This document shows, in pieces, positions 3,130-60,124 of a stretch of 60,124 nucleotides of DNA. Under the pieces are notes generated by a model. It had not been told where the DNA came from. It searched no databases and worked only from the letters and a program-made list of their open reading frames with translations. This DNA is from a virus. Where the stretch lies: the IMG/VR virus record IMGVR_UViG_3300045993_000895, positions 1-60,124 of that record. One strand, given 5' to 3'. The position numbers and the translations under genes were made by a program. Each line of letters starts with the position of its first letter. Position 1 is the first letter of the stretch.

Positions 3130-3157
3130 GGCCCGTAAGCATCTCTGCTTACGGGCC
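3130..3157 (-). terminator. Strong hairpin terminator, leftward
   Basis: A perfect 12-base-pair stem (GGCCCGTAAGCA, loop TCTC, then the complement) is followed on the minus strand by TTTTT. It lies between the integrase stop and the tRNA-like 3' end, where a host tRNA's own terminator would sit, so it may be part of the captured attachment region. In the phage it would end leftward late transcripts running past 3349. The stem may also weaken rightward transcripts, although that side has no T run. Confidence 0.8.
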
Positions 3158-3163
3158 CAAAAC

Positions 3164-3191
3164 TGGCGGGGTGTACGGGACTCGAACCCCC
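3164..3191 (-). other. attP: Candidate attP core: tRNA 3' end
   Basis: Read on the minus strand, this is a T-loop TTCGAGT followed by an acceptor 3' strand ending ACACCCC-G-CCA. The 5' side of the T stem pairs poorly and no upstream tRNA arms follow, so it is only the 3' end of a tRNA, as expected of a phage attP that restores the host tRNA on integration. Integrase, flanking repeats and terminator all adjoin it. The tRNA species cannot be told from this piece. Confidence 0.75.
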
Positions 3192-3293
3192 GAGCCCCGG
3201 GTTGCGTCATTGGCTGTCTTTCGGCGTTATCTCAAGATCGCGGCATGTTGCGACGTTGTAGTCCGGGCCTGACGGGTTTCTGACGCTGGTTCT

Positions 3294-3348: not shown

Positions 3349-5685
3349 TCACGCCGCCGTCGCGTGCGCCGTCGAGACGAGCGTCCCGAACGCCTGCACG
3401 CTCTCCGTCCCGTCCGGCTCCACGAGCACCACGTCGTAGGCGAGGCTTCCCGACGCCGCGATGTCGCCGGCGCGAACGTAGATCCCGACGACGCCGGCCG
3501 CCTGATCCTGCACGAGGATGTCCTGCGACGGCCCGTACTTCTGGAGCAGCATCGCGCCGTCGAGCTTGCGCCGGACCCCGAAGCGCAGGGTCGCGCCGGC
3601 GAGGTTGATCGGCGTCCGGCCGTTGCGACGCCGGCAGGCGACCACGATCGCGAAGGATGCGCCGGCGGCGACCGAGAGGTTGCGCGAGGCCGTCATGCTC
3701 CTCGCGCCCGTCGAGACGACGACCCCGCCGTCGCGCCTCGGGGCGGCCCGGTCCGCGAGGGCGAGCGCCACCGCGCCCGTCGTGTTTTGGACGTGGACGA
3801 GTTCGAGGAAGGCGCCGAGGTCGATCGACAGGGCGCACGAGGCCGCGAGAGCATTCTGCGCGCCGACCGTGCCGGCCAGCGAGAGCGAGATGGCGTCGCC
3901 GGCGAGGAGCCCGTAGAGCGCCCGCGGGGTGCCTGCATCGCCGAGCGAGAACCCGGAAGCGGCCGCGATGGGCCGGTCGGGGACCGCCGCGTCGCCGAGG
4001 TGGAGCGCCGAGGCTCCCGTGAGCGGGACCGCTTCGAGCGGCGCTGCGCCCAGGTCGAGACGAAGCGGGGCCGGGCCCGCGAGGGCGCTGGCGGACTTCG
4101 GCGGCGCCGCAAGGGCCAGCGAGATCGAGACAGGGCAGCCGGAGGTCGCCCCTGCGCCGGGAGCGCCGGCGGCGGACAGGGAGAGCGACGACGCGCCGGT
4201 GAGTTGGAGGAACGTCCCGGAGGCCGGAGCGGCTCCGAGCGCCAAGGAGAGCGCGTCCGAGCCGGAGATGGACTCCGCGGCCGCCGGCTGCGCCGAGCCG
4301 GCGATGGAGATGGCGCCCGCGCCGGACAGCGCGCCCGAGGAGGTGAGCGACGGGACCGAGGCGTGGACGAGTTGGAGCCCGGACGCGCCCACGAGCGCGT
4401 CGGCGGCGGCCGGCGTGGATGCGTGGGCAAGCCGCTCGCTGATCGCCGAGGCGAGGGAGGCGGCCTCTGCCGGGGCGGACGAGCCGGCGAGCGAGATGGG
4501 TCCGGCGACGGCGACCGCCTCGGCTGCGGCCGGAGTCGCTGTGCCCGCGAGCGCGAGCGCGTCGGCCGCGGAGAGTTGACCGGCGGCGGCGACGGAGCCG
4601 GACGCGGCGAGGGAGATCCCCTCGGCGCCGGACAGGGCGCCCGCGGCCGTGGGCGTCGCCGTCTCGGCGAGGCTGATCGCGGAGGCGCCGGAGAGCGACC
4701 CGGAGGCGCCCGTGCTGATGCCGCCCGAGAGCGCGGAGGAGATCGAGGACGCGCCGGTGAGCGCGTCGGCGGAGGTCGGAGCGGCCGCGTCGGCGAGAGC
4801 GAGCCCGACGGCGGCCGAGGGGCCGATCCTGGGCGCGGCGGCGAGTGCGACCTGGAGTGCGTCGGCGGCGGTCGGTGCAGCCGCCGCGACCGGCACGGCG
4901 GCGTCGGCGAGCGAGGCCGTGACGGCGCCCTGCTCGGCGAGCGCCTGGGCTGGAACGCCGGCGTCGGCGAGCGCGATCGTGGTCGCGGAGGCGACGGCTC
5001 CGGCCGCGAGGGGCGGCGCTGCCGCTGCTAGGGCGATGGCCTCTGCGCCGGTGAGCGCGAGAGCCTGGGAGGGCGTCGCCGCTCCGGCCAGCGCCTCGGC
5101 GGCCGCGCCGGAGATGGAGTCTGCGCTCGTTGGAGTCGCAGCCCCGGCCAGCGCGACCGCCGAGTTACCAGCAAGGGCCCCGCTCGCTCCCGTGCTGATG
5201 GCGGAGGCGTGGGCGAAGGAGATCGAGTCGGCGCCCGCGAGGGCAAGACCGGCCACGGGCGTGCCAGCGTCGGCGATGGCGATGGCGACCGCGCCGGTCT
5301 TGGCCTGCCCGAAGGAGATCGCCGATGCGTCGGCGAGAGCGACCGCCGAGGCCGCGGTGAGTGCATCGGCGCCCGCCGGCGTCGCCGCGAGGGCGCAGGA
5401 GATGGCCGCCGCAGACGCGAGGGCGCCGGATGCCTTCACGGTGGAGGCGTGGGCGAGCGACACCGCGTCGGCGCCGACGAGCGCGAGAGCCTCCGTCGGC
5501 GCACCGGCGTCCGCCGCCGAGATCGCGTCCGCGCCGGTGAGTGCGTACTTGACCGACGGGGCGGCCGACAGCGCGAGGCTGACGCTGCCGGCTCCGGTGT
5601 CGGAGACGGGCCCGCCGCCACCCGCCGACGCGAGGTCGAGGATGACGGCCGTGATGATGCCGCTGCGGCGGGGCAGGAAGGCCAT
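3349..5685 (-). CDS. Giant 20-residue-repeat protein with BppU-like C-terminal domain
   Basis: 778 residues. After a short N-terminus, about 30 tandem units of close to 20 residues fill residues 28-650, with consensus ALxGAxAISLAxAaTPxaad. The last 125 residues are a different domain with INLAGATLRFGVRRK and LAYDVVLVEPDGTESVQ. It closely parallels the free-standing 120-residue protein at 9494-9856 and resembles the N-terminal Ig-like domain of phage baseplate upper proteins (BppU). The repeats may form a beta-solenoid or fibrous shaft; this is inference. Start at 5685 has GAGG upstream. It is the last gene of the leftward transcript. Two other strong paralogues lie at 9866-11086 and 11099-16363. 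A structural or fibre role is likely but not shown. Confidence 0.8.
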   Translation of the reverse strand: MAFLPRRSGIITAVILDLASAGGGGPVSDTGAGSVSLALSAAPSVKYALTGADAISAADAGAPTEALALVGADAVSLAHASTVKASGALASAAAISCALAATPAGADALTAASAVALADASAISFGQAKTGAVAIAIADAGTPVAGLALAGADSISFAHASAISTGASGALAGNSAVALAGAATPTSADSISGAAAEALAGAATPSQALALTGAEAIALAAAAPPLAAGAVASATTIALADAGVPAQALAEQGAVTASLADAAVPVAAAAPTAADALQVALAAAPRIGPSAAVGLALADAAAPTSADALTGASSISSALSGGISTGASGSLSGASAISLAETATPTAAGALSGAEGISLAASGSVAAAGQLSAADALALAGTATPAAAEAVAVAGPISLAGSSAPAEAASLASAISERLAHASTPAAADALVGASGLQLVHASVPSLTSSGALSGAGAISIAGSAQPAAAESISGSDALSLALGAAPASGTFLQLTGASSLSLSAAGAPGAGATSGCPVSISLALAAPPKSASALAGPAPLRLDLGAAPLEAVPLTGASALHLGDAAVPDRPIAAASGFSLGDAGTPRALYGLLAGDAISLSLAGTVGAQNALAASCALSIDLGAFLELVHVQNTTGAVALALADRAAPRRDGGVVVSTGARSMTASRNLSVAAGASFAIVVACRRRNGRTPINLAGATLRFGVRRKLDGAMLLQKYGPSQDILVQDQAAGVVGIYVRAGDIAASGSLAYDVVLVEPDGTESVQAFGTLVSTAHATAA
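3735..5604 (-). repeat. Tandem protein-coding repeats, about 60-base period
   Basis: About 30 diverged units, mostly exactly 60 bases, encode the 20-residue motif. A few units are 17-18 or 22 residues. Codon usage varies between units, so most copies are old, unlike the near-identical pair at 15571-15676. The repeats leave several other frames without stop codons. Confidence 0.85.
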
Positions 5686-5710: not shown

Positions 5711-5773
5711 CTACTGCGGCAGGCAGCCGGGGACGCAGGCGTAGATCGCCCAGAACCGAAGCCAGGGGAGCAT
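5711..5773 (-). CDS. Possible 20-residue hydrophobic peptide
   Basis: A short ORF coding MLPWLRFWAIYACVPGCLPQ fills the gap between the exported protein upstream and the repeat protein downstream. Its ATG overlaps the preceding stop by one base (TGATG), which favours re-initiation. The peptide is hydrophobic with two cysteines and could insert in a membrane. There is no other support. Confidence 0.3.
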   Translation of the reverse strand: MLPWLRFWAIYACVPGCLPQ

Positions 5774-7844: not shown

Positions 7845-8119
7845 CAGTAGGCTCCCAGGTAGCGAATGGTGAACGTCGGGTCGGCCGGCGCCCCGCTGCT
7901 GGCCTCGAACGCGAGCGACATGGCGTCCTCGCGGAGGACGACCAGCGGAGGCGCGAGGCGCGCGGTGCCGGCGCACTGGAAGGCGACCGTCTCGCCTCCG
8001 ATCATGACCTTCAGGGAACCGTCTGCGTCACCGCAGTCGATCGCGATGATGAGGCGGTCGGCTGACGGCAGGTTGTCGAACGGCTGCGCTGCGCCTGGAA
8101 TCCACTGTGCGATGCTCAT
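7844..8119 (-). CDS. Small fibre-block protein
   Basis: 91 residues, not recognised. The sequence is beta-rich with two cysteines (AIDCGD and FQCAG) and no signal peptide. The start follows the neighbouring stop after three bases, and the stop overlaps the next ATG as ATGA. It is probably a small structural or chaperone-like component of the adjacent exported proteins. Confidence 0.6.
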   Translation of the reverse strand: MSIAQWIPGAAQPFDNLPSADRLIIAIDCGDADGSLKVMIGGETVAFQCAGTARLAPPLVVLREDAMSLAFEASSGAPADPTFTIRYLGAY

Positions 8120-9493: not shown

Positions 9494-9856
9494 CTACCTC
9501 GACGGGTGGTCGGTGAAGAGGAACTGGCCGAGGCCCTGGACCGACTCGGTGCCGTTCGCCTCGACGACCACAACGTCGTAGGCGAAGGCGCCGGCAGAGG
9601 TCGTGTCGGCGGGACGGAGGACGAACGTCACGAGGCCGTTGACGGCGTCGCTGAACGTCACGTCGGGGTTCGCTGCGCCGCCCTGCACGGCGACCTTCTG
9701 GACGACGAAGGCGACATCGGCGACCCGCTTCTTGATGCCGAACTTGACGGTCCCGCCGGTCAGGTCGATCGGGGTCGTGCCGTCCGAGCGGTTGCAACTC
9801 ACGTTGATCGTCACCGTCTCCCCCGCGAACGCGGAGAAGTTTTGCTGGGTCGCCAT
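9494..9856 (-). CDS. BppU N-terminal-like Ig-fold protein
   Basis: 120 residues. The motif order TINVSCNRSDGTTPIDLTGG, VKFGIKKR, FVLRPADTTSAGAFAYDVVV and EANGTESVQGLGQFLF matches the N-terminal domain of phage baseplate upper proteins (BppU/DUF2479), in which D-G-x-P-x-D-L-T is characteristic. It is also clearly paralogous to the last 125 residues of the 778-residue repeat protein. In other phages this domain anchors receptor-binding proteins to the baseplate. Here it stands alone beside two repeat giants. Confidence 0.75.
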   Translation of the reverse strand: MATQQNFSAFAGETVTINVSCNRSDGTTPIDLTGGTVKFGIKKRVADVAFVVQKVAVQGGAANPDVTFSDAVNGLVTFVLRPADTTSAGAFAYDVVVVEANGTESVQGLGQFLFTDHPSR

Positions 9857-11098: not shown

Positions 11099-14000
11099 CT
11101 AGAGCAGCGCGCCGTCGAAGAGCACGTCGGGGTCGGCCTGTCCGACGAGGGTCAGCACGGCAAGCTGCCGGCCGATGAGGTCGAACGGGCCGGAGCGCCG
11201 GCCGGCGACGGAGATCGCCGCGAGTTGCCGCCCGATGAGATCCACCGTGGTGTCGGCGGAGCCGAGCCCCCACCCGGGAGCAGCGGCCGCACCGAGCGAG
11301 AGCCCGAGGGAGCCGGCGAGCGCCCGGGCCGCGCCGGGAGACGCCGCCGCCTGGAGGCTGATCGCCGACGATCCCGCGAGCGCGCCGGAGGCAGCCGGGA
11401 CTCCCGCCGCGCCGATCGAGATCCCGTCCGACCCGGACAGCGCGATCCCGGTCGAGAGGGCGATCCCCCCGGAGCCGGCCAGGGCGAGCGCGACGGAGCC
11501 AGCGAGGGCGTCCGCCTCCGCGATGGCGCCGGATTCTCCGAGCGACAGCGGCAGATTGCCCACGAGGGAGATGGCAGAGCCGCCGGAGCCCGCCGCGTCG
11601 GCGAGGGCGATCCCCGAGGAGCCCGAGAGGCCGATCGCCGTCGTGCCGGCGGCCGCGTCGGCGAGCGAGATCCCGTCCGCTCCTGCGAGCGCGGCCGGCT
11701 GGGAGAGGGCGCCGGCGAGGGCGACCGAGACGGCGGAGGCTGCCGCCGGGGTGAACTGCTCGGCCGGTGCGCCCGCCGCCGCGAGGGAGATCCCCGCGGC
11801 CGCGAGCGTCGGAGCGGTCAGCGATGCCGCCGCCGAGAGCGCAGCCGTCAACTGAGAATTGCCTGCGAGTCCAGCGACCTGCGCCGTGACCGCCGCGTCG
11901 AGCAGGTTGCTCGTCAACTGCCCGGCGAGCGGGGAGACGAGCGACGGGATCGCCGACAGGCCGAGGGCGAGTTGGTCGCTCGCGCCTGCCTCGCCGGCCT
12001 CCCGGATCTGGGCCGCGTAGGCGAGCCCGATCGCGTCCGAGCCCTGCGCCTGGAGGAGCACCGAGCCCGCCGCCGAGAGCGCGAGTCCGACCGAGGAGGC
12101 CCCGAGGAGCCCGCTCCGGGGCGAGGCCGCGAGAGCGAGTTGCAGCGCGCAGGCGGCGGAGGGCCCGCGCAGGAGAGTCGCTCCGTCCGCCAGCGAGATC
12201 GCGGAGGCGAGGGCGGGGCTCGTGACGGCGGCGATGGCCGCGGAGCCGGTGAGCGAGATCGCGGAGGTGCCGGAGAAGACGTTGGCCGAGTCGGCGAGGC
12301 CGATCGCCAGCGAGCCGGTCAGCGCGGCCTGTGTGGATGGCGCCGAGAACTGGAGCGCGATCGAGAACGCGACATCCCCGAGCGGCCCGAGGAGCGCCGT
12401 CACGATCGCCGCGTCGGCGAGCGACAGCGGGCAGGGGAGGGCCGGGGAGAACTGCGCTGCGAGGACGATCGCGTCGCCGATGGACGCGGCGGAGTCGCCC
12501 GCGAGCGCCTGGGCCTCCGCGACGGAGCCGGCGAGGCCGAGGCCGATCGCCACGTCGCCCGCGAACAGGACGGGAGCGTTCGCGATCTGCGAGGACACCG
12601 CCGCGCCGAGCGCGAGGGAGAGCGGGCCGGTCCCGGCGAGCGGGCCGGAGGGCGCGGCTGACGCGGCCAGCGAGAGCGAGGCCGCCCCGGCGAACGACCC
12701 GAACGGCGAGCCCTGGTCGTTGACCTGGATGAGGCACGCGCCCGAGAGCGGCCCGGACGGCACGCCCGCCGCGGAGAGGGCGATGCTCCCGGCGCCGGTG
12801 AGCGAGCCGAGCGGGGTGGTCTGGGCCGTGAGGCCGATGGCGACCGGGATGTCGCCGACGAGGGAGAGCCGGATGTCGCCGAGCGGGTTGCTGGCGGACG
12901 GGACCGCCGCACAGTCCAGGGCGATCGAGGCGACCGCCGCCGGCGGGGTCGTCGGGGTCGCCGCGTCCGCGAGCCCAATCGCGCAGGAGCCCGAAAGAGG
13001 GCCGGAGGGTCGCGCCGAGGCGGTCGTGTAAATGTAGGCCGCGCCCGCGATGCTGCCCGAGGGCCGGCCGGAGAGGTCGAGTCCGATGCCGCAGTTGCCA
13101 GCGAGGGGGCCGCTCGGCGCCGCGAGGTCGGTGATCGACAGGAGCGAGAAGCCGCCCATCGACACGGGGCCGGTCCCGTAGGCCGTCGCCGCGAGGCCGA
13201 TCGCCAGGGAGCCCGCGAGCGGCCCGGAAGGGGCTCCGGCGAGGGCGATGGAGGCCGGAGCCCAGCCGAGAGGCCGGCAGGTCGTCGCCGGGGCTCCCGC
13301 GTCCGCGACCTGGACGGACGCCGCGCCGGAGATCGGCAGAACCAGCGATGGCGCCGCGCCGTCCGCGAGGGACAAGGACGAGGCGCCGGCCAGGGCGAGG
13401 TTCTGGTTCGTGACCGAGAGCGACGGCGCGATGGCGAGCGCGGAGGCAGCCGTGAGGGCGTCGGCCTCCTTGGGCGAGGCCGCGCAGGCGATCGACAGCC
13501 CGTCGGCGCCGGCCAGGGAGATGAACAGGCCGGACGACGGCGAGGCCCCGCAGGCGAGCGAGATCGCCGAAGCGCCCGTCGATGCGTCGGCCGTGGCGGG
13601 CGCGGCGGAGCCTGCGATCTGCTCCGTCGCGGCGCCGGAGAGGGCCTCGGCCGCCTTGGGGGCGGACGCATCGGCGAGCGAGACGGCCGACGCAGCCGTC
13701 AGCGACCCGCCGCCGTTGATCGTGGCCGAGTCGGCGAGGGCGAGTCCGATCGCGCCGGACACGCCTCCGGCGGCGGACGGCACTCCCGCGCCGGCAAGGG
13801 CCAGCAGGTCGGCGCCCGAGAGCGCCTCGGAGACGGTCGGGCCCGCCGCGTCGGCGATGGAGATCGCCGAGGCCGCGGACAGGGCTCCGCCGGGCGTGGG
13901 GGTGGCGCCATCGGCGAGGGAGATCGCCCCGGCGGCCTGGAGCGCCTCCGCGGCGGAGAGGGTCGCCGCAAGGGCAAGCTGCTCGCCGCAGGCCCCCGCG

Positions 14001-16363
14001 ATGGCATCGGCGGCCCGCGGGGTGCCCGCGCAGGCGATCTGCATCGGTGCGGCGCCGGTGATCGAGCCGCCAAGCTCTGTCGGGACCGCCGCGTCGGCCA
14101 CCTGGATCGCGACGGCGCCGGCGAGGCCCAAGGAGGCCGCTGGCGTGCCCGTGGCGGCAAGCTGGAGGGAGTCCGAGCCCTGTAGCGGGGCGGCCAGCGA
14201 GAGCGCCCCAGAGAGCGCCAGGGAGAGCGAGGAGGCGGCCGACGCTCCGATCGCGGGGAGGGCCGAGCAGGCAAGCTGCAGCGGATCGGCAGCCGAGGGT
14301 GCGTCGGCACACGCGGGCGCTGCGGCGCAGGCAAGCGCGAGGGCCGAGGCGCAGCCCATGCCGATCGCCGGGCTGCCGGAGAGCGCGATCTGCTCGGACG
14401 CCGCGCCGGAGATCGCCTCGGCTGCCCGCGGCGTGGCGGCGAGGGCGAGTTGGTCGGCGCAGGCGGCGATGACGGCGCCGGAGAACGAGACGGTCGCGGC
14501 GCACGCGATCTGGATCGCCTCGGTGGCGCTCTGGTAGGCGAGGGCCACGGCCGGAGCGGCAGAGTCGGCGAGCGCGATGGCGCTGGACGCCGATGGGGCC
14601 TCCCTGCTGGACGGGGCCGCCGCGAGGGCGATCTGGAGCCCGGAGGCAGCCGTCACGCCGGAGGTCGCAGCCGGCGCCGCGGAGCAGGCCAGCGAGAGCG
14701 CGTCCGACGCCGCGGGCGACTCGCTGGCCTTCGGGACGGAGGCGAGGGCGAGGGAGATCGGGCAGGCGCCAGAGATGGCGTCGGCCTCCGAGATGCCGCC
14801 CGCGCCGGCCAGGGAGATCGGGTCCGCGCACGAGATGGCGCTCACTCCGCCCGGGGAGGCCCCGAGGGCGATGGACAGCGGCCCGGCGCCCGCTACCGCA
14901 TCGGCCGAGGTTGGGATGGAAGCAAGGCCGAGCGCGTCGGCGACAGCCCCGGTCGGAGTCAGGCGGGCCGTCGGCGTGGCCGTCGCCGCGATGGCGATCG
15001 AGCAGGCCAGGACGGGCGAGAGGGTCCCGCCCGGGGCTCCCGCGCAGCCGATGGAGATGGACTCTGCGCCGGAGAGCGGCTTGGCGGCGAGCGGTGGCGC
15101 GGAGAGCGCGAGTGAGAGCGTCGAGGCGCAGTTCGCTCCGACCGAAGGCTTGGCGGCGTCGGCGAGCGCGAGAGCGTCGCTGGCCTGGATGGCGCCCTGC
15201 GCGGCGAGTGAGGAGGCGGCGGAGAGTTGGACGGCGCAGGAGGCGGAGAGGGCGTCGGACTCGCGCGGGACAGATCCGCCGGCCAGGGCGATCGTGTCCG
15301 CTCCCGCGAGCGCCAGCCCAGCCGTCGGCGTCGCGGCGCAGAGGAGCGAGATCCCTGCCGCGCCCGCAAACTGAGTTGTCCCCAGCGGCATGACGCTGGC
15401 GTAGAGCCGGATCTCGTTGATGCCGGTCGCGAGGCTGTCGGACTCAATGATCGCGCCGGCGTCGGCGAAGGAGATGGTCGCGGCGCAGTTCGCCCCGATC
15501 CGCACGGGTGCGGCGAGAGCGATGGAGATCGGGCAGGCGGCCGCCAGGGCGTCGGCCTGCTTGGGCGCGGGCGAGTTCGTCGCGAGCTGGATCGCGGTCG
15601 CGGAGGCGAGCGCGCCCGAGGCGGAGATCGCCGGCGAGTTCGTCGCAAGCTGGATCGCGGTCGCGGAGGCGAGCGCCTCGGCCGACTTCGGGACGGCCGA
15701 GCACGCAAGCTGGATCGGGCAGGCGCCGGTGAGCGCGGAGGCGCCCGAGGCCGTGGCGGCGCAGGCAAGCTGCTCGCCGAGCGCGGCCCGGACGGCATCG
15801 GCCTCGGTCGGGGCCGGGGAGTTGGTCGCAAGCTGGATCGCCGTCGCCGACGAGAGTGCCAGCGAGGAGCGAGGAGTCCCGGCGCACGCGAGCGAGACGG
15901 ACTCCGCGCCCGAGAGCGCCGTCGCCGAGGAGAGCGCCATGCCGCCGGCAAGCTGGAGCGCGACGTTGCCCGCGAGCGCGTGGGCCTCGCGAATCGCCGC
16001 GGCATCGGCCAGAGCGAGGCCGTCCGCGCCTGCGAGAGCCGTCCCGGCGAGGACCGGGCCCGCGAGCGCGATCTGGAGGGCGCTCGCCCCGGCGTCGGCG
16101 TCGGACTCCCGCGGCGTTGCCGCCAGCGCCGCCGAGATGGCGACGGCCGCCGTGAGGCCCGACGCCGACTTCGGCACGCCTGCGTCTGCGACAGCGATGG
16201 AGCTTGCGCCCGTCTCCGCCGCGGCGTGGGCGACGTTCGCGTTGCAGGCAAGCTGGACGCTCGACGCGCCCGAGATCGCCCGCGTCGGGGCGCCGGAGCA
16301 CGCAAGCGAGAGCGCGGCCGTCGCGGTGAGCGCACGGCTGCCGAACAGGAAGAGCAGAGACAT
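11099..16363 (-). CDS. 1754-residue giant 20-residue-repeat protein
   Basis: The largest gene in the window, about 9 percent of its length. Roughly 80-90 units of about 20 residues run almost end to end, consensus A-L-x-G-A-x-x-[IL]-x-L-A-x-A-x-x-P followed by four variable residues. Residues about 1020-1260 use a variant with PSGPLAG starts. The C-terminus carries two copies of DLIGRQLA. Composition is dominated by Ala, Ser, Gly and Leu, with several Cys (IQLACSA). AGGAGG precedes the start. If each unit is one beta-solenoid rung, the shaft would be about 40 nm, assuming 0.48 nm per rung. No known family is recognised. Its late operon and relatives point to a virion or fibre component. Confidence 0.8.
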   Translation of the reverse strand: MSLLFLFGSRALTATAALSLACSGAPTRAISGASSVQLACNANVAHAAAETGASSIAVADAGVPKSASGLTAAVAISAALAATPRESDADAGASALQIALAGPVLAGTALAGADGLALADAAAIREAHALAGNVALQLAGGMALSSATALSGAESVSLACAGTPRSSLALSSATAIQLATNSPAPTEADAVRAALGEQLACAATASGASALTGACPIQLACSAVPKSAEALASATAIQLATNSPAISASGALASATAIQLATNSPAPKQADALAAACPISIALAAPVRIGANCAATISFADAGAIIESDSLATGINEIRLYASVMPLGTTQFAGAAGISLLCAATPTAGLALAGADTIALAGGSVPRESDALSASCAVQLSAASSLAAQGAIQASDALALADAAKPSVGANCASTLSLALSAPPLAAKPLSGAESISIGCAGAPGGTLSPVLACSIAIAATATPTARLTPTGAVADALGLASIPTSADAVAGAGPLSIALGASPGGVSAISCADPISLAGAGGISEADAISGACPISLALASVPKASESPAASDALSLACSAAPAATSGVTAASGLQIALAAAPSSREAPSASSAIALADSAAPAVALAYQSATEAIQIACAATVSFSGAVIAACADQLALAATPRAAEAISGAASEQIALSGSPAIGMGCASALALACAAAPACADAPSAADPLQLACSALPAIGASAASSLSLALSGALSLAAPLQGSDSLQLAATGTPAASLGLAGAVAIQVADAAVPTELGGSITGAAPMQIACAGTPRAADAIAGACGEQLALAATLSAAEALQAAGAISLADGATPTPGGALSAASAISIADAAGPTVSEALSGADLLALAGAGVPSAAGGVSGAIGLALADSATINGGGSLTAASAVSLADASAPKAAEALSGAATEQIAGSAAPATADASTGASAISLACGASPSSGLFISLAGADGLSIACAASPKEADALTAASALAIAPSLSVTNQNLALAGASSLSLADGAAPSLVLPISGAASVQVADAGAPATTCRPLGWAPASIALAGAPSGPLAGSLAIGLAATAYGTGPVSMGGFSLLSITDLAAPSGPLAGNCGIGLDLSGRPSGSIAGAAYIYTTASARPSGPLSGSCAIGLADAATPTTPPAAVASIALDCAAVPSASNPLGDIRLSLVGDIPVAIGLTAQTTPLGSLTGAGSIALSAAGVPSGPLSGACLIQVNDQGSPFGSFAGAASLSLAASAAPSGPLAGTGPLSLALGAAVSSQIANAPVLFAGDVAIGLGLAGSVAEAQALAGDSAASIGDAIVLAAQFSPALPCPLSLADAAIVTALLGPLGDVAFSIALQFSAPSTQAALTGSLAIGLADSANVFSGTSAISLTGSAAIAAVTSPALASAISLADGATLLRGPSAACALQLALAASPRSGLLGASSVGLALSAAGSVLLQAQGSDAIGLAYAAQIREAGEAGASDQLALGLSAIPSLVSPLAGQLTSNLLDAAVTAQVAGLAGNSQLTAALSAAASLTAPTLAAAGISLAAAGAPAEQFTPAAASAVSVALAGALSQPAALAGADGISLADAAAGTTAIGLSGSSGIALADAAGSGGSAISLVGNLPLSLGESGAIAEADALAGSVALALAGSGGIALSTGIALSGSDGISIGAAGVPAASGALAGSSAISLQAAASPGAARALAGSLGLSLGAAAAPGWGLGSADTTVDLIGRQLAAISVAGRRSGPFDLIGRQLAVLTLVGQADPDVLFDGALL
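11180..16330 (-). repeat. Long tandem array of 60-base coding repeats
   Basis: About 85 diverged units of roughly 60 bases encode the protein repeat. Two units (15571-15613 and 15634-15676) match at 42 of 43 bases, 63 bases apart, showing recent unit duplication. A third related unit lies near 15818. Confidence 0.85.
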
Positions 16364-16404: not shown

Positions 16405-16677
16405 CTACTTCCTCGCGCAGCAGAAGCAGGAGAGGATCGGCTGGATCCCCTCCTTCACCTCGACGACGTTGCCCCAGACGGTGGGCTGCCAGCGCGGCAG
16501 GCACTTCGCCGAGCAGACGACCTCGCCGTCCTCGACCTTCCAAGTGGTCTTCGACGGCTCGACGGAGATGCAGGGCGGGCGGACCGGCTTCTGCGGCGCC
16601 TGCGCGGGCGCGGCTGGCGTGCTGGACGCGGAGGGGACGGCCTGGGCGAGAATGGCGGCGATGACGAGGGCAAGCAT
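16405..16677 (-). CDS. Small exported Cys-rich protein
   Basis: 90 residues. Residues 1-20 (MLALVIAAILAQAVPSASS) form a hydrophobic leader. The mature part is a Pro/Ala linker then a compact domain with six cysteines (PPCISV, VVCSAKCLP, LSCFCCARK), probably disulphide- or metal-bonded. No family is recognised. It lies between a signal-peptide fibre-like gene and the 1754-residue repeat gene. Confidence 0.6.
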   Translation of the reverse strand: MLALVIAAILAQAVPSASSTPAAPAQAPQKPVRPPCISVEPSKTTWKVEDGEVVCSAKCLPRWQPTVWGNVVEVKEGIQPILSCFCCARK

Positions 16678-18578: not shown

Positions 18579-19268
18579 CTAGTTCTCCATGATCCGCACG
18601 GTCGCCGAGCCGCTGGCGACGAGGCAGTAGTAGGGGGTCTGACCCACGTCGTCGCAGAACGAGTCGCCGTTGTTGAGTTGGATCCCGTTCGCGGTCGAGA
18701 CGCCGGCCGACCCGATGTAGACGACGACTCCGCTCTGGTTCTGGACGCAGAGGCTCGTCCGGTTGACGGGCGTTGCCGCCTGCATCGGGGTTGCGCCGGT
18801 CGTGCAGGAGATCGCGGTCGTGACCGGCGCGAAGCCGCGCTTGCTGGCCTGCGCCGAGACGAACCCGCCGTTGAAGGTCGCCCGTAGGGTCGCGGTGAAG
18901 GAGCCGCTCGTCCAGGCCGTCATCTGCACCTTGACGTGCGTCGTGCCGACCGGGAGCGGGATGCCGAGGGAGAAGGCGCTGATGGCCGAGCCAGTGAGCG
19001 ACGTGTAGACGTAGCCGTTCGAGTCGATGAAGGGGGCCGAGGCCCAGGACGAGCCGCCGTCGCGCGAGGCCCAGGCCGTCAGCGTCCCGTTGACCGGGCC
19101 ACCCGTGAACTGGACCGAGGCGCCCTGGCGGCCCGCGACGGCGAGCATGACGTTGGCGTTGAGGGCGCCGAGCGTCGTCGCCGCGCTGAAGGCGTCGGGG
19201 ACGATGATCTGGGCGCGAGCCGGAAGGGCGAAGCAGAGGAGAGCCGCGAGCAGCAGGAGGTAGCGCAT
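18579..19268 (-). CDS. Exported beta-sandwich protein
   Basis: 229 residues with a strong signal peptide (MRYLLLLAALLCFALPARA, ARA cleavage near 19). The middle (about 35-135) resembles phage fibre carbohydrate-binding-like domains, with TLTAWASRDGGSSWASAPF, an Asn-Gly turn, and VKVQMTAWTSGSFTATLRAT. The C-terminal 75 residues (SLCVQNQSGVVVYIGSAGVS, then YYCLVASGSATVRIME) match the small beta-domain of 9191-9490 and 19272-19784. So it combines two domain types found separately elsewhere in the block. Confidence 0.7.
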   Translation of the reverse strand: MRYLLLLAALLCFALPARAQIIVPDAFSAATTLGALNANVMLAVAGRQGASVQFTGGPVNGTLTAWASRDGGSSWASAPFIDSNGYVYTSLTGSAISAFSLGIPLPVGTTHVKVQMTAWTSGSFTATLRATFNGGFVSAQASKRGFAPVTTAISCTTGATPMQAATPVNRTSLCVQNQSGVVVYIGSAGVSTANGIQLNNGDSFCDDVGQTPYYCLVASGSATVRIMEN

Positions 19269-21776: not shown

Positions 21777-23690
21777 CTAGCCGATGCGGCGGACCATCCA
21801 GGTCCCGTCGCCGATGTAGACGGTGCAGGTCGCGCCGTCGGTCTTGAGCGTGAGTTGGAAGGCGGTCTGCCCCGATGCCTGCCGGAGATCGACGACGCCG
21901 GTCCAGTTCATCGGCACGAGGGCGTTCGCGGTGTTGTTGCGGTCGGAGGCGCCGCTGACGACGGTGCCCACGTCCTTGATCGTCGTCCCGGCGGTCTGGG
22001 CGGACCCGCCCGGGTTCAGGTAGACCGTGACCGCGCCGCTCGTCTGCGCGAGGTAGCAGCGCGCAAGCATGACGACGACCTCGTAGAGCCCGGGCGCCAG
22101 CATGATCGAGAGGCCGTCGCTGCTCAGAGAGCAGGCCGAGGCCGGGATCGAGCGCGAGATCGCGCTGGAGAGTTGGATCGGCTTGTAGACCGCCGCGAGG
22201 TTCGCGACGGGCGTGTCCTTGGCGACGGCGCCCGAGATGAAGTCGGGCGGCATCATCGGGACGCCGGACACCTGGAGCCCGCCGGTGAAGTTGGTCAGGC
22301 CGGTGTGCGTCTCGGTGCCGTTGTGGACCTCGGGGCCGCCGTGCGCCTCCGAGCCGGAGTGCGTCTCCGCCCCGCCGTGCGTCTCCGCCCCGCTCACGGC
22401 GAGCGTCACGAACGTCTCGGCGCCGGCGTGCGTCTCCGGCCCGCTGTGCGTCTCGGCGCCGGTGTGGGCCTCCGGGCCCGAGTGCGTCTCGGCGCCCTGG
22501 TGGGCGTTCGCAGCGGTGAAGGTGACGATGCCCTGATGCAGTTCGGCGTCCACTCGATCGTCGTGGTCGGCGACCGCCGAGGTGATGTTCGTCCCATCGA
22601 CCAGGATCCGGCCGAGGTAGACGCAGGACGGGCTGTCGGGGAAGGTCGAGAGCGCGCAGACCGGGTTCTGGGCGGCGGTGTAGGCAAGCCGCGAGACGGG
22701 CCTGCTCGACGCTCGGTCGGGCGCGATGTTCGAGACGACGATCCGGTCGGCCCCGTCGCTCATCGAGCCGTAGCCGGACGAGAGGTAGACGTAGCGCCAG
22801 CCCGGCGTCGAGGAGTCGCCCGCGTCGTGGGCGGCCTTCCATCCGATGTAGGCGTAGCTGCTCGGGGAGTCCGAGAAGCCCGTGCGGATCGGGTGGGCGA
22901 CGATCCGGCCGTCGAGGAAGGCGATCCCCTCGCCGAGCTTGAACTGCGTCGGGCTGCCTCCGATGGAGAACTGGAAGCCGGACACGCGACCGTGGAGGTG
23001 GGCGAAGGCGAGCGACTGATGCGCGAAGGTGCGCGCGTCCATGACCCGGATGTCGCCACCGACCGGCACCCAGACGACCGCGAGCCACGCCTCCGCGGAC
23101 GAGGAGAGGCGGCTCGGGGCGGAGACAGGCAGCGCGGGAGACGAGCTGGGCGTGCCCTGGTAGACGCGCAGGGTTGCCGAGGCCCGCGTCTGCTTGGCGG
23201 TGCTCGTCCACTGGACGACGCCGTTCACCTTCTTGGGGACGGTGAAGGTGTCGGCCGCGAGCGACGCGACGGCCGGCGCGATCGTGATCACGTCGAGGCG
23301 ACCCCAAGTGGCGTCGGGGGTGCCGAGGGTGAGGTAGCGCGAGGGCGGCATACCTTCGTCGGGCGAGATGCGGGCGAGCCGGAAGCGCGACTCGTCGGAA
23401 CCGAAGGTGCCGTCGGCCGCTTTCACGACCGCCTCGCCAGCGAAGACGCCGACGACGGGCGAGGAGCCGCCCGAGATGCTGCCCACCATGAGCCCGGACA
23501 GGACGCCGGCCGTGAATAGACCGTCTGCGCCCGACCCTTGCGCCTGCTCCAGCCCGCGGTCGAGCCCGGCCCCCAGGATCGCCATCGTCCGGCGCTGGAT
23601 CTCCTGGAAGAGCCGGTCCTGCGCGGCGTTCAGGTCCACGTCGGTGATCTGCTCGACGCCGCTCCAGTTCACGCCTCGGTGTTGGGTCAC
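21777..23690 (-). CDS. Tail fibre with histidine hexapeptide repeats
   Basis: 637 residues following tail protein I, where the distal fibre gene usually sits. The N-terminus (1-60) is helical and may attach to the baseplate. Residues about 60-385 are a mixed beta region (RFRLARISPDEGMPPSRYLT, DARTFAHQSLAFAHLHGRVS). Residues about 396-463 carry some 12 hexapeptides of the form GAETHS or GPEAHT. The C-terminus (to 637) is a beta tip ending YIGDGTWMVRR. Histidine every six residues recalls iron-binding needle segments of trimeric phage fibres, but that is inference. It is probably a receptor-binding or shaft component. Confidence 0.75.
   Translation of the reverse strand: MTQHRGVNWSGVEQITDVDLNAAQDRLFQEIQRRTMAILGAGLDRGLEQAQGSGADGLFTAGVLSGLMVGSISGGSSPVVGVFAGEAVVKAADGTFGSDESRFRLARISPDEGMPPSRYLTLGTPDATWGRLDVITIAPAVASLAADTFTVPKKVNGVVQWTSTAKQTRASATLRVYQGTPSSSPALPVSAPSRLSSSAEAWLAVVWVPVGGDIRVMDARTFAHQSLAFAHLHGRVSGFQFSIGGSPTQFKLGEGIAFLDGRIVAHPIRTGFSDSPSSYAYIGWKAAHDAGDSSTPGWRYVYLSSGYGSMSDGADRIVVSNIAPDRASSRPVSRLAYTAAQNPVCALSTFPDSPSCVYLGRILVDGTNITSAVADHDDRVDAELHQGIVTFTAANAHQGAETHSGPEAHTGAETHSGPETHAGAETFVTLAVSGAETHGGAETHSGSEAHGGPEVHNGTETHTGLTNFTGGLQVSGVPMMPPDFISGAVAKDTPVANLAAVYKPIQLSSAISRSIPASACSLSSDGLSIMLAPGLYEVVVMLARCYLAQTSGAVTVYLNPGGSAQTAGTTIKDVGTVVSGASDRNNTANALVPMNWTGVVDLRQASGQTAFQLTLKTDGATCTVYIGDGTWMVRRIG
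22301..22505 (-). repeat. 18-base coding repeats, Glu-x-His hexapeptides
   Basis: About 12 near-tandem 18-base units encode E-[TAV]-H-x-G hexapeptides. The GTGCGTCTCGGCGCC-type DNA units are similar but not identical. A short break (VTLAVS) splits the run into two blocks. Confidence 0.8.
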
Positions 23691-23699: not shown

Positions 23700-24425
23700 C
23701 TAGAAGCGCGGGTCGAGCCAGATGTCGGAGGCGACGCCGCCGGCCTTCGCGCCGTCGATCGCCTGGATCCCTGCGGTGAGTTGCTCGACCGTCGCGTCGG
23801 GCCCGGCGTGGATGATGACGCCCGGGGGAACCGGGCTGCAGAAGGCGTCGGCGCCGCTCTGGCCCGCCGAGAAGCAAAAGGCCCCGCCACCCGCGACCAT
23901 CTGGGCGAGCAGCGTCGAGTCGTGCGTCGCCGCGGGGAAGTCGGCGGAGAAGGAGATCGGCAACTCGACCAGCGCGGCCCGCAGGCCGGTCTTGAGGTGG
24001 GCGACGGTGAGGGCTTGGTTCAGCCCGCCCATCGTCACGTCCGGCGGCGACCACATCCTCGTCCGAAGCTCGGCATCCGTCTCGTCCGGCCGGCGGGAGT
24101 ACTCGAAGCCCTGCGCGTGCAGGTCGAGCCAGCGGCCCTCGGCCTGGGAGAAGTACGCCTGGAAGTCGTACTGGTCGGAGAGGTTCGCGAGCTTCTCGAA
24201 GAGAGCGGCCGCGCCCCGGAGGAGCCACTCGGATGCGCCGCCGTCCACGCGGAACGGGCGGAAGATCGAGCGGACGAAGAGGTAGTAGGCCGACTCGTGG
24301 TTGCCGACCGCCGACACCTCGGCGCGACCCGCGAGCCCGAGGACCGAGGTCCCCTGCGCGAAGACGTGGTTCGGCAGGGCGCCAGCGGCAAGCTGGATCG
24401 CCGATGCTCCTGCGAGGGCCGGCAT
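23700..24425 (-). CDS. Tail protein I homologue with N-terminal 20-residue repeats
   Basis: 241 residues. Its position directly after baseplate J, and features such as YYLFVRSIFRPF, LDLHAQGFEYSRRPDETDAE and LRTRMWSPPDV, match the P2 gpI/phage tail protein I family, which joins baseplate wedge to fibre. The first about 40 residues (MPALAGASAIQLAAGALP, then SVLGLAGRAEVSA) are two copies of the repeat that builds the giant proteins. This is the only baseplate gene carrying the repeat and links the two systems. The C-terminal CFSAGQSGADAF region is unassigned. Confidence 0.75.
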   Translation of the reverse strand: MPALAGASAIQLAAGALPNHVFAQGTSVLGLAGRAEVSAVGNHESAYYLFVRSIFRPFRVDGGASEWLLRGAAALFEKLANLSDQYDFQAYFSQAEGRWLDLHAQGFEYSRRPDETDAELRTRMWSPPDVTMGGLNQALTVAHLKTGLRAALVELPISFSADFPAATHDSTLLAQMVAGGGAFCFSAGQSGADAFCSPVPPGVIIHAGPDATVEQLTAGIQAIDGAKAGGVASDIWLDPRF

Positions 24426-24433
24426 CGTCTACC

Positions 24434-25576
24434 TCACGCGAAGTTGATGAGCGTCACGTCCGACCGCGGGACGTGGGCAAGCCCAAGCTGAAGGTCTTGC
24501 GCTGACGGCGCCGCCGGGCTCACGCCGAGGAGCACCTGGACATCGAGGAGGCCGAGCGAGCGGCCGAGGTCGAGCGCGATCTGGGCGATGACGGAGCGGT
24601 AGATCACATCGCCCGCCCCATACCTCTTCGAGCTTGCCTCGGCGGCGATGGCGGCCGCGATGGCGGAGCGGGCAGCGGCGGTGCTCGTCCCGGCCTGCCA
24701 CACGCACTGGAGCGTGACGGCGATGTCGTCGATGACCGTGCCGGCGACGATGACCGCGACGCCGCCTGCCCGCCACTGGTCGATGATCGCCTTCACCGAG
24801 TCGGTCATGGCGGTGTTCGAGTTGCCCTGGTCGTCGCCGACGTAGAGCATCACCTGTCGGCCCTGCTCGACGGCGGTCGCGCGGCGGACGGCCGGGATGG
24901 TCAGCGCCCCGTACTCGATCGCCGTGAGCGTCCCGCGGCGCTGGGCGGCTCCCCAGGAGTGGCAGCGGGCGAGGAGTTGGTCGTTCGTCTCCTTGTCGTT
25001 GCCGCCGGCGGCCGCCTGGGCGTTCGAGACGGTCAGCGAGGAGTCGAAGAGGGAGCCCTGGATCTGGGTGATCTTGCCAGCGCCGACGTTGCCCGAGACG
25101 CCGGAGGATGTCGCGACGACGAGGCCGGTCTTCGTGAGGTCGGTGCCGGAGAAGCCCACGTCGGCCTGGAGCGAGAAGGTGACCGAGATGCCGGTCGTCG
25201 GATCCTTCACCGAGGTGAAGCTCGTGCCGGACGGGACGACGCCGGAGCCCGCCGAGGTGTTCGGGCGGGTCAGGGTGATCGTCGCGCTCGCGGAGGTCGC
25301 CGGGTCGCGCGAGATCCGCAGGCGGTCGTAGGCGAGCTTGTCGAGGTCCGCGCCGTCAGGGATCGCGGCGGCGGTGTCGAAGAAGAGGCGCCGGTGATCC
25401 TCGACGAGCTTGTGGATGACCAACTCGCCCATCGCGGCCGCCGCGCCGATGAGGAGGTCGGACGCGGAGCCGTCGGCGAAGTCGGTGATCGGGTTCGCGG
25501 CCGAGAGCGACGCCTGCTGGACGCGGGCCTGCCCGGCGTTGAAGAGGTCGGTGAAGCTCGGGGTGTAGGTGCTCAT
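24434..25576 (-). CDS. Baseplate J-like protein
   Basis: 380 residues with the J-family pattern: PSFTDLFNAG near the start, SASDLLIGAAAAMGELV, the early LAYDRLRISRDPATSASATI, VVPSGTSFTS, then GNVGAGKITQI and NDQLLARCHSWGAAQRRGTL with AVRRATAVEQGRQVMLYV. It forms the wedge of contractile-tail baseplates. It overlaps the upstream gp25-like gene by four bases (ATGA) and precedes tail protein I, the conserved W-J-I order. Confidence 0.9.
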   Translation of the reverse strand: MSTYTPSFTDLFNAGQARVQQASLSAANPITDFADGSASDLLIGAAAAMGELVIHKLVEDHRRLFFDTAAAIPDGADLDKLAYDRLRISRDPATSASATITLTRPNTSAGSGVVPSGTSFTSVKDPTTGISVTFSLQADVGFSGTDLTKTGLVVATSSGVSGNVGAGKITQIQGSLFDSSLTVSNAQAAAGGNDKETNDQLLARCHSWGAAQRRGTLTAIEYGALTIPAVRRATAVEQGRQVMLYVGDDQGNSNTAMTDSVKAIIDQWRAGGVAVIVAGTVIDDIAVTLQCVWQAGTSTAAARSAIAAAIAAEASSKRYGAGDVIYRSVIAQIALDLGRSLGLLDVQVLLGVSPAAPSAQDLQLGLAHVPRSDVTLINFA

Positions 25577-25968
25577 GGGGCGACCCTCGCGACGACGGGG
25601 AGCGTGGTGCCGGCGGCAACGACCACGACGCTGACGACGAGGGCGTTGTCGCCGGTGACCGCGACGGAGACGCTCTGGACGAGCGCGATGCGCGGCTCCA
25701 GCGAGAGCACCTCGCGGACCCGCGCCTTAATCTTCTTGCCCACCATGTCGGTGACGGGCTTGTTCAGGAAGTCGCGCAGGCCGACCCCGTAGTCGGGCCG
25801 GTGGTAGATGTCGCCGGGCGAGGAGAGCAGGAGCCGCTCGATCGCCTGCCGCAGGTTCGCGAGCCCGGCCACCGTCGCGACGCCGCCGCGGCCGTCCGGG
25901 GCGAGGTCGGTCGATAGGTAGATGTCGCGCCCGAGGATGCGCTCTTCGGCGGAGACGGTCATGGTCAC
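25573..25968 (-). CDS. gp25/GpW-like baseplate wedge protein
   Basis: 131 residues. LRQAIERLLLSSPGDIYHRP followed by DYGVGLRDFLNKPV is the conserved core of the T4 gp25/P2 gpW lysozyme-like wedge family (R-x-R-P-x-Y-G-x-x-L-x-x-x-x). Length fits. It precedes baseplate J with an ATGA overlap. The family keeps the lysozyme-like name but generally acts structurally. Confidence 0.85.
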   Translation of the reverse strand: MTMTVSAEERILGRDIYLSTDLAPDGRGGVATVAGLANLRQAIERLLLSSPGDIYHRPDYGVGLRDFLNKPVTDMVGKKIKARVREVLSLEPRIALVQSVSVAVTGDNALVVSVVVVAAGTTLPVVARVAP

Positions 25969-25974: not shown

Positions 25975-28671
25975 CTACGGCAAGCGGATCACGTCTACTT
26001 CGAGGTCAACCCAGGACGCGGAGTCCACGGTTCGCGTCGCGACGACGGTCACCGCGGTCGGCGTCTTGGAGACGCGGGCGATGGCGAACCCGGTCAGCGC
26101 CGGGACGTAGACGCCGGTGCCCGGGTCGAACACGGTCGCGTCGTACTGGCCGACGACGTAGGCCACGGCGACGTAGCGGGAGCCGGGCACCGTGCCGCCG
26201 AGGGTGACGACGACGCTGCCGGTGCCCGACATCCTCACGAAGTACTGCGTGATCATGCTCGACATGACGAAGGAGCCGACCTGGAGGTTGCCGGGCGCCA
26301 CCTTGAGCGCGGCGCCGGCCTTGTCGAGCTTCGCTCCCGCCACGGGATCACCGACGCTCCAGCCGAGCCCGGGGTGGGCGGCGAGGTAGGCGGCGTCGGC
26401 CTCCTGGTAGTTGCTCGTCTTCAGTGCGTCGGCCTTGATCGCCGAGGCGGTGATCGCCCCGGCCGAAATCTCGCTCGCGATGAGGAGCTGCGAGCCCTTC
26501 GCGTCGATCCAGTTCGCCCCGGTCCACTGGTGCGACCAGAAGGTGGAGCGGTGCGGCAGCGACCCGATCTGCGGGTTGCCGTTCGCGTCCGGCGAGTGGC
26601 CCTTGCAGTTGGAGTCCGGGCAGGAGGTCACGGTGTCGGTGGAGAACCACACGTCGCCGACGCGCAGGGTGTAGCCGCCGGCGCCGTTCACCGGGGCCGT
26701 CGCCTGGAAGAACGTCGCCGTCTTCTTCGAGGCGAGGCCGTTCGCGGCGTCGGCGGTGCTCTGCGCGGTCACAATGAGCCCCTTCGCAGCCGAGGCGACG
26801 GCGTTCAGTAGCGCGGTCCGGGCGGCGTAGGCGTTCGCGAACACGTCGCGGAAGGCTTGGCCGGTGATCGTGATCGTGGCCGCGTTGACCCAGGTCGTCT
26901 CGTTGGTCGTGCCCCAGGTGAAGCCGAGGTTGCTCTGGAAGTAGCCGTAGAGCGACGTGACGGCGGCGTCGAGCGCCGAGTGGTCGATACCGTAGGTGTT
27001 GGCCTGCGCCTGGATGATCCAGTTGTTGCCGTAGAGATCCTTGAAGTCGAGAAGCGCCTGCTGCTTCTCCGCCCCCGGCGTGAGCTTGCCGTCCGACGCG
27101 ATGTCGGCGAGGGCCGCGTTGGCGTTCGCGGCCTGCGTCGCCGCAGCCGAGGCCGCGGCCTGCGCCGTCGCCGCGTTCGCGACCGCCGTGTTGGCCGTGC
27201 CCTGCGCGCCGTCCGCGAGGCTCTTGGCCTTCGCGGCGATGGCGTTCAGGAGCGTCGTGCGGGCCGCGTAGGCGTTGCCGAACTTGAGCCGGAAGGTCGG
27301 CCCGTCGATGTCCGTCGTCGTCGCCTGCCACGCGGCATCGTTCGTCCCGACGGTCAGGGAGAGCGTCCCGAGGTAGGTCGAGAGGGCCGAGAGCGCCGTG
27401 TCGTAGGCGGTCCGCGAGACGACGAAGGTGTCCGCCTGGGAGTCGGTTCCGGCCTGGGCGTCAAGGAGATCGTGGGCGTCGGAGAGCACGGCCCGCTTCT
27501 CGGCCGGCGTCAGCTTGCCGTCCGAGGAGATGTCCGCGAGCGCCGCGTTCGCCGTCGCTGCCGCGCTTGCCGCGCTCGACGCCGCCGCCGCCGCGCCGTC
27601 AGCTACGGTCTTGGCTGCGTCGGCCCGGCCCTTGATCGCCGTCGCGATGGCGTTGAGCAGCGCCGTGCGGGCGGAGTAGGCCGCCGTGAACTTCTCCCGG
27701 AAGACCGCCCCGTCGATGTTGTTCGTCGTCGTCTGCCACGCAAGCTCGTTCGAGCCGATCGCGAGGCCGAGGGTGCCGAAGTAGGCCAGGAGCGCGGTGA
27801 TCGCCGCGTCGTAGGCCGTGGTCGAGACGGAGACGGTTCCAGCCTGGGCGTCGATGCCGGCCTGGGCGTCGTAGAGGTCGTGGATGTCGCGGAGGACGGC
27901 GCTCTTTTCGTCGGGCGTGAGCTTGTTGTCGTTCGCGATGTCGGACAGGCTCGCGAGCGCCGTCGTGGCGTTCGAGGCCGCGGCGGCTGCCGCGCTGGCC
28001 GCCCCGTCTGCCGTGCCCTGCGCCGCGTTGGCGAGAACCTTCGCTGCCGTCGAGATCGCGTTCTCGATCGTGTCCCGGGCCCCGTAGGCGCCCGCGAAGG
28101 CGGCCCGGAAGACCGCGCCGTCGATGTCGGTCGTCGTCGCGGACCACGCCGCGTCGTTGACGCCGAGGTTCGAGCCGAGGCCGGCCATGTAGGTCTGGAG
28201 CGAGGAGATCGCGGCGTCGAAGGCGACGGTCGAGACGCCGAAGACGTTGGCCTCGGCGTCGATGGCCGCGTGCCCATCGACCAGTTCCTTGTAGTCGCGG
28301 AGCACCGCGCCCTTCTCGGCGGGCGTGAGCTTCGAGTCCGAGGCGATGTCGGCGAGTGCCGCGTTCGCGAGCGCCGCGTCGGCGGCGGCCTGCTGCGCCT
28401 GATAGTTCGCCAGGGCGACGGCCGACTGCGCCTCGGCGGCCGCGGTCGAGGCGGCGTTGATGGCGTCGGTCGCCGCGGCCGGCAGGGTGCCCTCTCCGCC
28501 CTGCGGAAGCGAGGGGGCGAGCGCGGTCGCGAAGGCGTAGGCGAAGGCCCGAAGCTGCGGGCCGGCGATGGCGTTGTCGGGCTGGGCGAGCAGGGACTCG
28601 TAGAGGGTCTTCGACAGGCCCGAGGTGCAGGCGGCGTTGCCTGGGTCGATGCCGAGGTTCAGAAGTCCCAT
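25975..28671 (-). CDS. Long tail-fibre or tip protein with four repeats
   Basis: 898 residues. Four copies of a roughly 130-residue module run from about residue 95 to 640, each with LADIASDxKLTPxEK, a YGV/VS-x-x-A-Y-D-x-A segment, WxxTTTDIDGxxFR and ARTxLLNAIAxxAK. Between modules are Ala-rich heptads (AAAASNATTALASL). This resembles the central repeats of phage tail-tip and host-specificity proteins. The N-terminus contains Ala-rich coiled coil. The C-terminal 200 residues are beta-rich, ending SASWVDLEVDVIRLP. It sits unusually between the spike and gp25-like genes. Confidence 0.75.
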   Translation of the reverse strand: MGLLNLGIDPGNAACTSGLSKTLYESLLAQPDNAIAGPQLRAFAYAFATALAPSLPQGGEGTLPAAATDAINAASTAAAEAQSAVALANYQAQQAAADAALANAALADIASDSKLTPAEKGAVLRDYKELVDGHAAIDAEANVFGVSTVAFDAAISSLQTYMAGLGSNLGVNDAAWSATTTDIDGAVFRAAFAGAYGARDTIENAISTAAKVLANAAQGTADGAASAAAAAASNATTALASLSDIANDNKLTPDEKSAVLRDIHDLYDAQAGIDAQAGTVSVSTTAYDAAITALLAYFGTLGLAIGSNELAWQTTTNNIDGAVFREKFTAAYSARTALLNAIATAIKGRADAAKTVADGAAAAASSAASAAATANAALADISSDGKLTPAEKRAVLSDAHDLLDAQAGTDSQADTFVVSRTAYDTALSALSTYLGTLSLTVGTNDAAWQATTTDIDGPTFRLKFGNAYAARTTLLNAIAAKAKSLADGAQGTANTAVANAATAQAAASAAATQAANANAALADIASDGKLTPGAEKQQALLDFKDLYGNNWIIQAQANTYGIDHSALDAAVTSLYGYFQSNLGFTWGTTNETTWVNAATITITGQAFRDVFANAYAARTALLNAVASAAKGLIVTAQSTADAANGLASKKTATFFQATAPVNGAGGYTLRVGDVWFSTDTVTSCPDSNCKGHSPDANGNPQIGSLPHRSTFWSHQWTGANWIDAKGSQLLIASEISAGAITASAIKADALKTSNYQEADAAYLAAHPGLGWSVGDPVAGAKLDKAGAALKVAPGNLQVGSFVMSSMITQYFVRMSGTGSVVVTLGGTVPGSRYVAVAYVVGQYDATVFDPGTGVYVPALTGFAIARVSKTPTAVTVVATRTVDSASWVDLEVDVIRLP

Positions 28672-59813: not shown

Positions 59814-60124
59814 GTGCCGAAGAAAACGGACAAGCCGAAGACGTGGGCTCGTGTCGTTCGCGAGTTGACCGGACTCACGCAGGAGCGGTTTGCCGAGAAG
59901 GTGGGAGCCGGCAGACCACAGGTGGGGAAGTGGGAGACCCAAGGGGCTAGCCCGTCCTTCAAGCACTCACAGCAGATCCGGCGGGTCTTCCCCTCAGAGG
60001 CGGCACAGGCAGACAAGCTGTGGCCAACGCCATCTGCCGCCTCTGGCGTCACCATCACGTACGCAGCCACGCCCACCGCCGAGCAGTCCCCCGCCGCCAA
60101 CTCCGCCGTCAGTCTGACTGCCTC
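59814..60124 (+). CDS. HTH regulator at start of rightward operon, cut by window edge
   Basis: Starts at GTG 59814 and runs off the right edge (103 codons seen). ELTGLTQERFAEKVGAGRPQ then VGKWETQGASPSF is a Cro/Xre-like HTH (residues about 14-45). Joined to base 1, the frame continues three codons and stops at TGA 8-10, giving about 106 residues. It diverges from the repressor gene, so the two may form a bistable switch. The C-terminal part is Ala/Thr/Ser-rich. Confidence 0.7.
   Translation, partial: MPKKTDKPKTWARVVRELTGLTQERFAEKVGAGRPQVGKWETQGASPSFKHSQQIRRVFPSEAAQADKLWPTPSAASGVTITYAATPTAEQSPAANSAVSLTA

Follow-up and report, generated by a model that had tools for sequence, protein, structure and literature searches.

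Could a baseplate wedge protein carry a unit of the repeat that makes up the giant proteins of its own phage, and could such a unit hold these proteins on the tail? The question is raised by a 60,124-base virus record from IMG/VR, analysed as a whole and hereafter called the window. A circularly permuted copy of the window exists as the contig IMGVR_UViG_3300045747_000653, with 77,656 bases. Where the two were compared at one end, 2 of 18,201 positions differ. The two ends of this contig match each other over 147 bases, with a single mismatch. The genome is therefore most likely circular, with a length of about 77.5 kb, and both contigs together opened the entire genome to a scan for the repeat.

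The wedge protein and its neighbourhood

The gpI gene and the features around it are as follows.

25573..25968, minus strand: gp25/gpW sheath initiator (PF04965, E 9e-9)
24434..25576, minus strand: gpJ, the gene immediately upstream of gpI (Baseplate_J, PF04865, E 8e-23)
24432..24435, minus strand: GAGG Shine-Dalgarno-like site, six bases before the gpI ATG
23700..24425, minus strand: gpI-type baseplate wedge protein (BW3), 241 residues, identified from the open reading frame, motif relatives and a profile match to solved wedge proteins
24075..24143, minus strand: A-x-G-x-W-L-D...R-x-P-x-E-T-D motif of the gpI core
23703..24242, minus strand: gpI core (about residues 62-241), common to other gpI/DUF2612/Mu gp48-like proteins
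21777..23690, minus strand: probable fibre gene directly after gpI, 637 residues, with the fibre role inferred from position and repeat

The tail is contractile, and its gene cluster comprises the sheath (phrog_279, E 5e-10), gp25/gpW, a gpV-like spike, gpJ and then gpI. An 898-residue protein (25975-28671, minus strand) takes an unusual position in the baseplate cluster, between the spike and gp25 genes, and contains several long repeats SDxKLTPxEKxAVLRDxxDL that match phrog_38044.

Searched alone, gpI matched no PDB entry and no tail family in Pfam or NCBIfam, and gave only weak tail matches in PHROGs, the best at E 0.09 (tail protein). The motif W-L-D-x9-R-x-P-x-E-T-D-x3-R, with homologous flanks, is shared by gpI and the gpI-like proteins of other uncultured phages, and the motif-bearing relatives include a DUF2612 protein as well as Mu gp48-like proteins. 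By phmmer, gpI matched L199, L206, L178 and others at 1e-7 to 1e-5 (small sets), while a profile of gpI and six relatives matched the solved wedge proteins TmpF (3e-14), gp024 (4e-10) and phi92 gp146 (8e-7). The gpI homologue named in an earlier note on this DNA is thus borne out by the gene order after the gp25-like gene and gpJ, the core motif and the profile match. That is, gpI is a BW3/gpI-type baseplate wedge protein of a contractile-tailed phage, an assignment made from motif, gene order and profile, not from a curated family match by gpI alone.

The N-terminus of gpI reads MPALAGASAIQLAAGALPNHVFAQGTSVLGLAGRAEVSAVGNHE. Since the GAGG site precedes the ATG and only 8 bases separate the latter from the gpJ stop, translation very probably begins there and includes the first 40 residues. 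Initiation at a downstream GTG (residue 36) would leave the protein without the repeat. This reading was rejected on two grounds: it is the ATG that has the Shine-Dalgarno-like site, and the frame of the repeat match is that of gpI. Normally, the gene that follows gpI encodes the fibre that gpI holds. Here, this gene encodes a His-rich tandem repeat AETHSGPEAHTG, which is of a different kind from the 20-residue unit described below.

The 20-residue unit in the giant proteins and in gpI

The proteins that consist largely of the unit, and the two places with a match in gpI, are listed here.

11099..16363, minus strand: giant repeat protein G1, 1754 residues, 80 recognised units of about 20 residues
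9866..11086, minus strand: repeat protein G2, 406 residues, 13 units
3349..5685, minus strand: repeat protein G3, 778 residues, 31 units, with a C-terminal BppU_N-like domain (residues 664-774; 3349-3693)
24369..24419, minus strand: repeat unit 1 in gpI, residues 3-19, ALAGASAIQLAAGALPN (PSSM 17.4 bits, HMM 13.9 bits)
24312..24362, minus strand: degenerate repeat unit 2 in gpI, residues 22-38, FAQGTSVLGLAGRAEVS (-1.3 bits)

The unit consensus in G1, G2 and G3 is A-L-x-G-A-x-x-I-x-L-A-x-x-A-x-P, with a period of 20 and at times 18 or 22 residues. Three near-identical units (ALSSATAIQLATNSP or ALASATAIQLATNSP) occur at residues 169, 230 and 251 of G1 amid otherwise diverged units, and are likely the result of recent internal duplication. 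For five giant units, AlphaFold with an eight-row alignment predicted a regular solenoid in which each unit contributes two short strands (mean pLDDT 63, pTM 0.52), which suggests with modest confidence that the giant repeat is a solenoid of this kind. Searches with the repeat model and the repeat sequence found no significant fold match in the PDB or among viral models, and no match at E 0.001 or better. It was also observed that several small proteins of the fibre block have N-termini resembling signal peptides (MRRVLPLLLLLIANEARADP, MRYLLLLAALLCFALPARA), which is unusual for virion proteins. They are encoded on the minus strand at 5773-6558, 6570-7976, 8123-9190, 16405-16677 and 18579-19268.

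Do residues 1-40 of gpI contain two such units, as the earlier note had read them? The position-specific scoring matrix (PSSM) covers 17 positions and was built from the 124 giant-protein units, whose own median score is 18.4 bits. Unit 1 of gpI scores 17.4 bits, a level reached by none of 20,000 shuffles (z about 5.8), by 2 of 20,000 random 241-mers of giant composition and by 4 of 20,000 first-order Markov 45-mers, and the same place again ranked first when the matrix was made from G1, G2 or G3 alone. The control set consisted of 13,647 ORFs, 2.36 million residues in all, taken from GC-rich loci of phages and bacteria, many of which had been chosen for repeat-like DNA. None of these ORFs reached 17.4 bits, and the top scores of 15.7 and 15.4 bits, the only ones above 15, come from a genuine repeat array in the viral contig L030. 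The profile HMM, which is bias-corrected, bears on the concern that any phage sequence rich in Ala and Gly might score as well; here unit 1 reaches 13.9 bits, above all controls (at most 10.1). Unit 2 is degenerate (PSSM -1.3 bits, HMM -0.1), although its spacing is right: it is the top remaining place in gpI, at an offset of +19, its level is reached by shuffles in 1.4% (P about 0.014), and its degeneracy is that of the worn units in the giants' own gaps. Consequently, the earlier reading holds firmly for the first unit and in weaker form for the second.

We infer that the gpI unit and the giants' units probably share descent. A duplication of a giant unit into gpI at the DNA level is unsupported, since the longest match is 16 bp (P 0.23) and nothing goes beyond what the protein match forces. 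In the AlphaFold model of gpI, made with six relatives, a confident helical stretch surrounds the motif, and residues 1-40 have a pLDDT of 31-35.

The unit sits in an added N-terminal extension of 40-60 residues, because no unit is found in the relatives examined and several of these start close to the start of the core. A small and distant sample of about 30 proteins that share the core motif, gpI-like and J-like, contains no unit match; the best other unit score among them is 5.7 bits, inside the core of a J-like protein. The relatives in L193, L199 and L206 begin close to the start of the gpI core, and in the solved wedge proteins the matched core begins 27-54 residues from the N-terminus, versus about residue 62 or later in gpI. 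The possibility that the same N-terminus is common in gpI of phages lacking the giants thus finds no example among the relatives examined (a small sample).

The size and distance of this sample reflect the lack of any close relative beyond the near-identical contig. In IMG/VR, searches for close relatives with gpI, gpJ, TerL, the LysM tail protein and the BppU_N-like protein returned only IMGVR_UViG_3300045747_000653 and one TerL relative at 38%. By tblastn in phages, gpI, the LysM protein, G1, G3 and the BppU_N-like protein had no match, where the null result for the giants may reflect the low-complexity filter, and gpI had no match in plasmids. A gpI-like protein of a prophage with an integrase was noted in L205 (1712-2914). 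The 19-21 residue periodicity at its C-terminus (ALGGAISLSDAAAAPADSSS) was considered as kin of the window repeat and rejected, as it scores 2.9 bits, within noise.

Proposed docking and the alternatives

Three further features bear on what the unit may do in gpI, one of them being the C-terminal domain of G3 given above.

9494..9856, minus strand: stand-alone BppU_N-like protein directly after G2 (PF10651, E 0.0012, below the Pfam cut-off)
60027..60077, plus strand: first of two repeat-like units in an HTH_3 regulator linker, the other beginning at 60087 and crossing the end of the window

What could a repeat unit do at the N-terminus of a wedge protein? BW3, which includes T4 gp7, A511 gp104, pyocin PA0619 and P2 gpI, is the usual attachment protein for receptor-binding proteins (PMC10811340). 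The binding site for these proteins or fibres is usually the C-terminal domain, and the N-terminal parts of BW3 form a helical bundle. In phage Milano, the tailspike arms touch the N-terminal part (PMC10811340).

The most likely single function of the gpI extension, held tentatively, is the docking of a repeat protein. According to this proposal, an ordinary contractile-tail wedge protein would have gained an N-terminal extension that contains two units of the giant type, the first intact and the second worn. The extension might fold as a short strand-turn-strand rung of the giants' kind, a fold that is guessed. Such a rung would present an edge for a repeat solenoid, the end of which could add to it by rung or strand stacking; this docking is likewise guessed. 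The repeat protein would thereby be attached to the sheath-proximal part of the wedge. In a more specific version, which we regard as unlikely, the rung would be homotypic: the wedge protein would carry one solenoid rung as a template that the fibre continues, an arrangement for which no description was found for phage tails.

The earlier suggestion of a docking edge for a repeat solenoid therefore has points on both sides. In its favour, unit 1 is as good as a typical giant unit and above every control, the spacing of unit 2 is right, the match is to the giants' own repeat, the relatives examined have no counterpart of the extension, and the protein that carries it belongs to the usual attachment type. 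Against it stand the two-unit match in the HTH_3 regulator, the adaptors of G2 and G3, the adjacent fibre without the unit, the usual place of fibres on the C-terminal domain of BW3 and the low pLDDT of the gpI N-terminus, which gives docking no structural support. The sequence observation is thus solid, and docking is a proposed mechanism.

It is possible, with a somewhat lower probability, that the unit is a module spread within the genome, found in the three repeat proteins, in gpI and in an HTH linker. In gpI it would then be a tolerated tail or a generic strand or linker with no holding role, and the giants would attach via BppU_N-like adaptors of their own. The HTH_3 regulator (Pfam E 4e-6; 60027-60124, plus strand) lies at the right edge of the window and continues in L009 (974-1084). 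In the linker after its DNA-binding domain, it holds the units TPSAASGVTITYAATPTAEQ and SPAANSAVSLTASAQPS, which score 13.5 and 14.1 bits with a spacing of exactly 20, a pair that 20,000 shuffles never produced. When the entire genome was translated in six frames and the giants were set aside, paired units occurred at two places only, gpI and this linker. The supposition that no repeat other than that of gpI lies outside the fibre block is consequently not quite right. A baseplate or fibre-docking role for the regulator's units is implausible, and docking is therefore just one of several explanations for the unit in gpI.

The adaptors point the same way. The BppU_N-like domain occurs exactly twice in the genome, each time with a repeat protein, namely fused to G3 and in the gene after G2; both the G3 C-terminus and protein 9494-9856 match phrog_1084 at E about 1e-8, and the two are 38% identical. 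This may mean that the repeat proteins come with adaptors of their own and could anchor without gpI. The units that duplicate inside G1 also fit a module able to spread. However, the HTH copy is weaker per unit, at about 9 bits each after bias correction and within the control range, and gpI and the giants have no kinship at the DNA level beyond the protein match. Any spread of the unit would therefore be old.

Convergence is less probable again, and we consider it unlikely. Under this explanation, a short hydrophobic strand of gpI, rich in Ala and Gly, would resemble the unit by chance and serve the wedge itself, for example in contacts with gpJ or the sheath. The composition (Ala/Gly/Leu-rich) allows it, as Ala-rich, GC-rich coding sequence can mimic the unit, and so do the few random and Markov sequences that reach the score, the weak unit 2 and the lack of DNA-level similarity. 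However, no control ORF attains 17.4 bits, those that exceed 15 all belong to a genuine repeat array, and paired units are confined to two places in the non-giant translation of the genome.

The fibre held by a wedge protein is often the product of the gene that follows. That the gpI extension docks the product of the next gene (21777-23690), its likeness to the giants being incidental, agrees with the order gp25-gpJ-gpI-fibre and with E217, whose fibre ORF directly follows that of its wedge protein (PMC10329688), but is improbable, as the 20-residue unit was not found in this fibre gene and the fibre sites of BW3 are usually C-terminal.

Docking of a repeat protein thus ranks first, closely followed by the spread module, then by convergence and by docking of the next gene's fibre. 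If the unit docks the giants, it would provide a simple way to attach very long repeat proteins to the baseplate, as well as a sequence signature for finding the partners of orphan repeat giants. Even without docking, gpI clearly exemplifies the fusion of a fibre-type repeat to a wedge protein.

Comparison with known systems

Similar repeats occur in other phages. Among the loci from a search with a two-unit DNA pattern, only L030 and L061 contain real arrays, besides the phage itself. In L030 (IMGVR_UViG_3300020020_000391, 432-3242), a 20-residue Ala/Gly-rich array (ALAGSSALAFAPSGDL) scores up to 15.7 bits on the window model, and a PF23148 fibre-tail adaptor domain lies C-terminal to the repeats. 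In L061 (IMGVR_UViG_3300049491_000346, minus strand), an open frame of 844 residues holds another such array (AVTVGVAGSGAARK), with up to 12.6 bits. Both share with the window repeat the period of 20 and the strand pattern G-A-x-x-I/L-x-L-A, whereas they differ in their lower scores, in their other adaptor domains and in having no gpI on the DNA fetched. This suggests a broad unnamed repeat class in tail proteins.

The N-terminal domain of BppU (PF10651) is an adaptor-type domain, here fused to G3 and encoded beside G2. It lies on the side of the repeat proteins and not in gpI, and the match is below the Pfam cut-off.

No description of a fibre-type repeat rung in BW3 was found in the literature. 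The gpI of this phage resembles known BW3 proteins (P2 gpI, pyocin PA0619, T4 gp7 and A511 gp104; TmpF/ORF63 and phi92 gp146 among phage proteins in the PDB; DUF2612 and Phage_Mu_Gp48 in Pfam) in its core motif, its position after gpJ and its profile match, and differs from them by about 40-60 additional N-terminal residues of fibre-type repeat.

A fibre-binding peptide element of a wedge protein does have a precedent, by analogy, since in E217 the fibre binds a loop of the triplex wedge protein gp45 (PMC10329688). In both cases, a peptide element of a baseplate wedge protein holds, or in gpI may hold, a tail fibre; the element of gp45 is an internal loop inserted in the fibre coiled coil, whereas that of gpI would be an N-terminal repeat rung instead.
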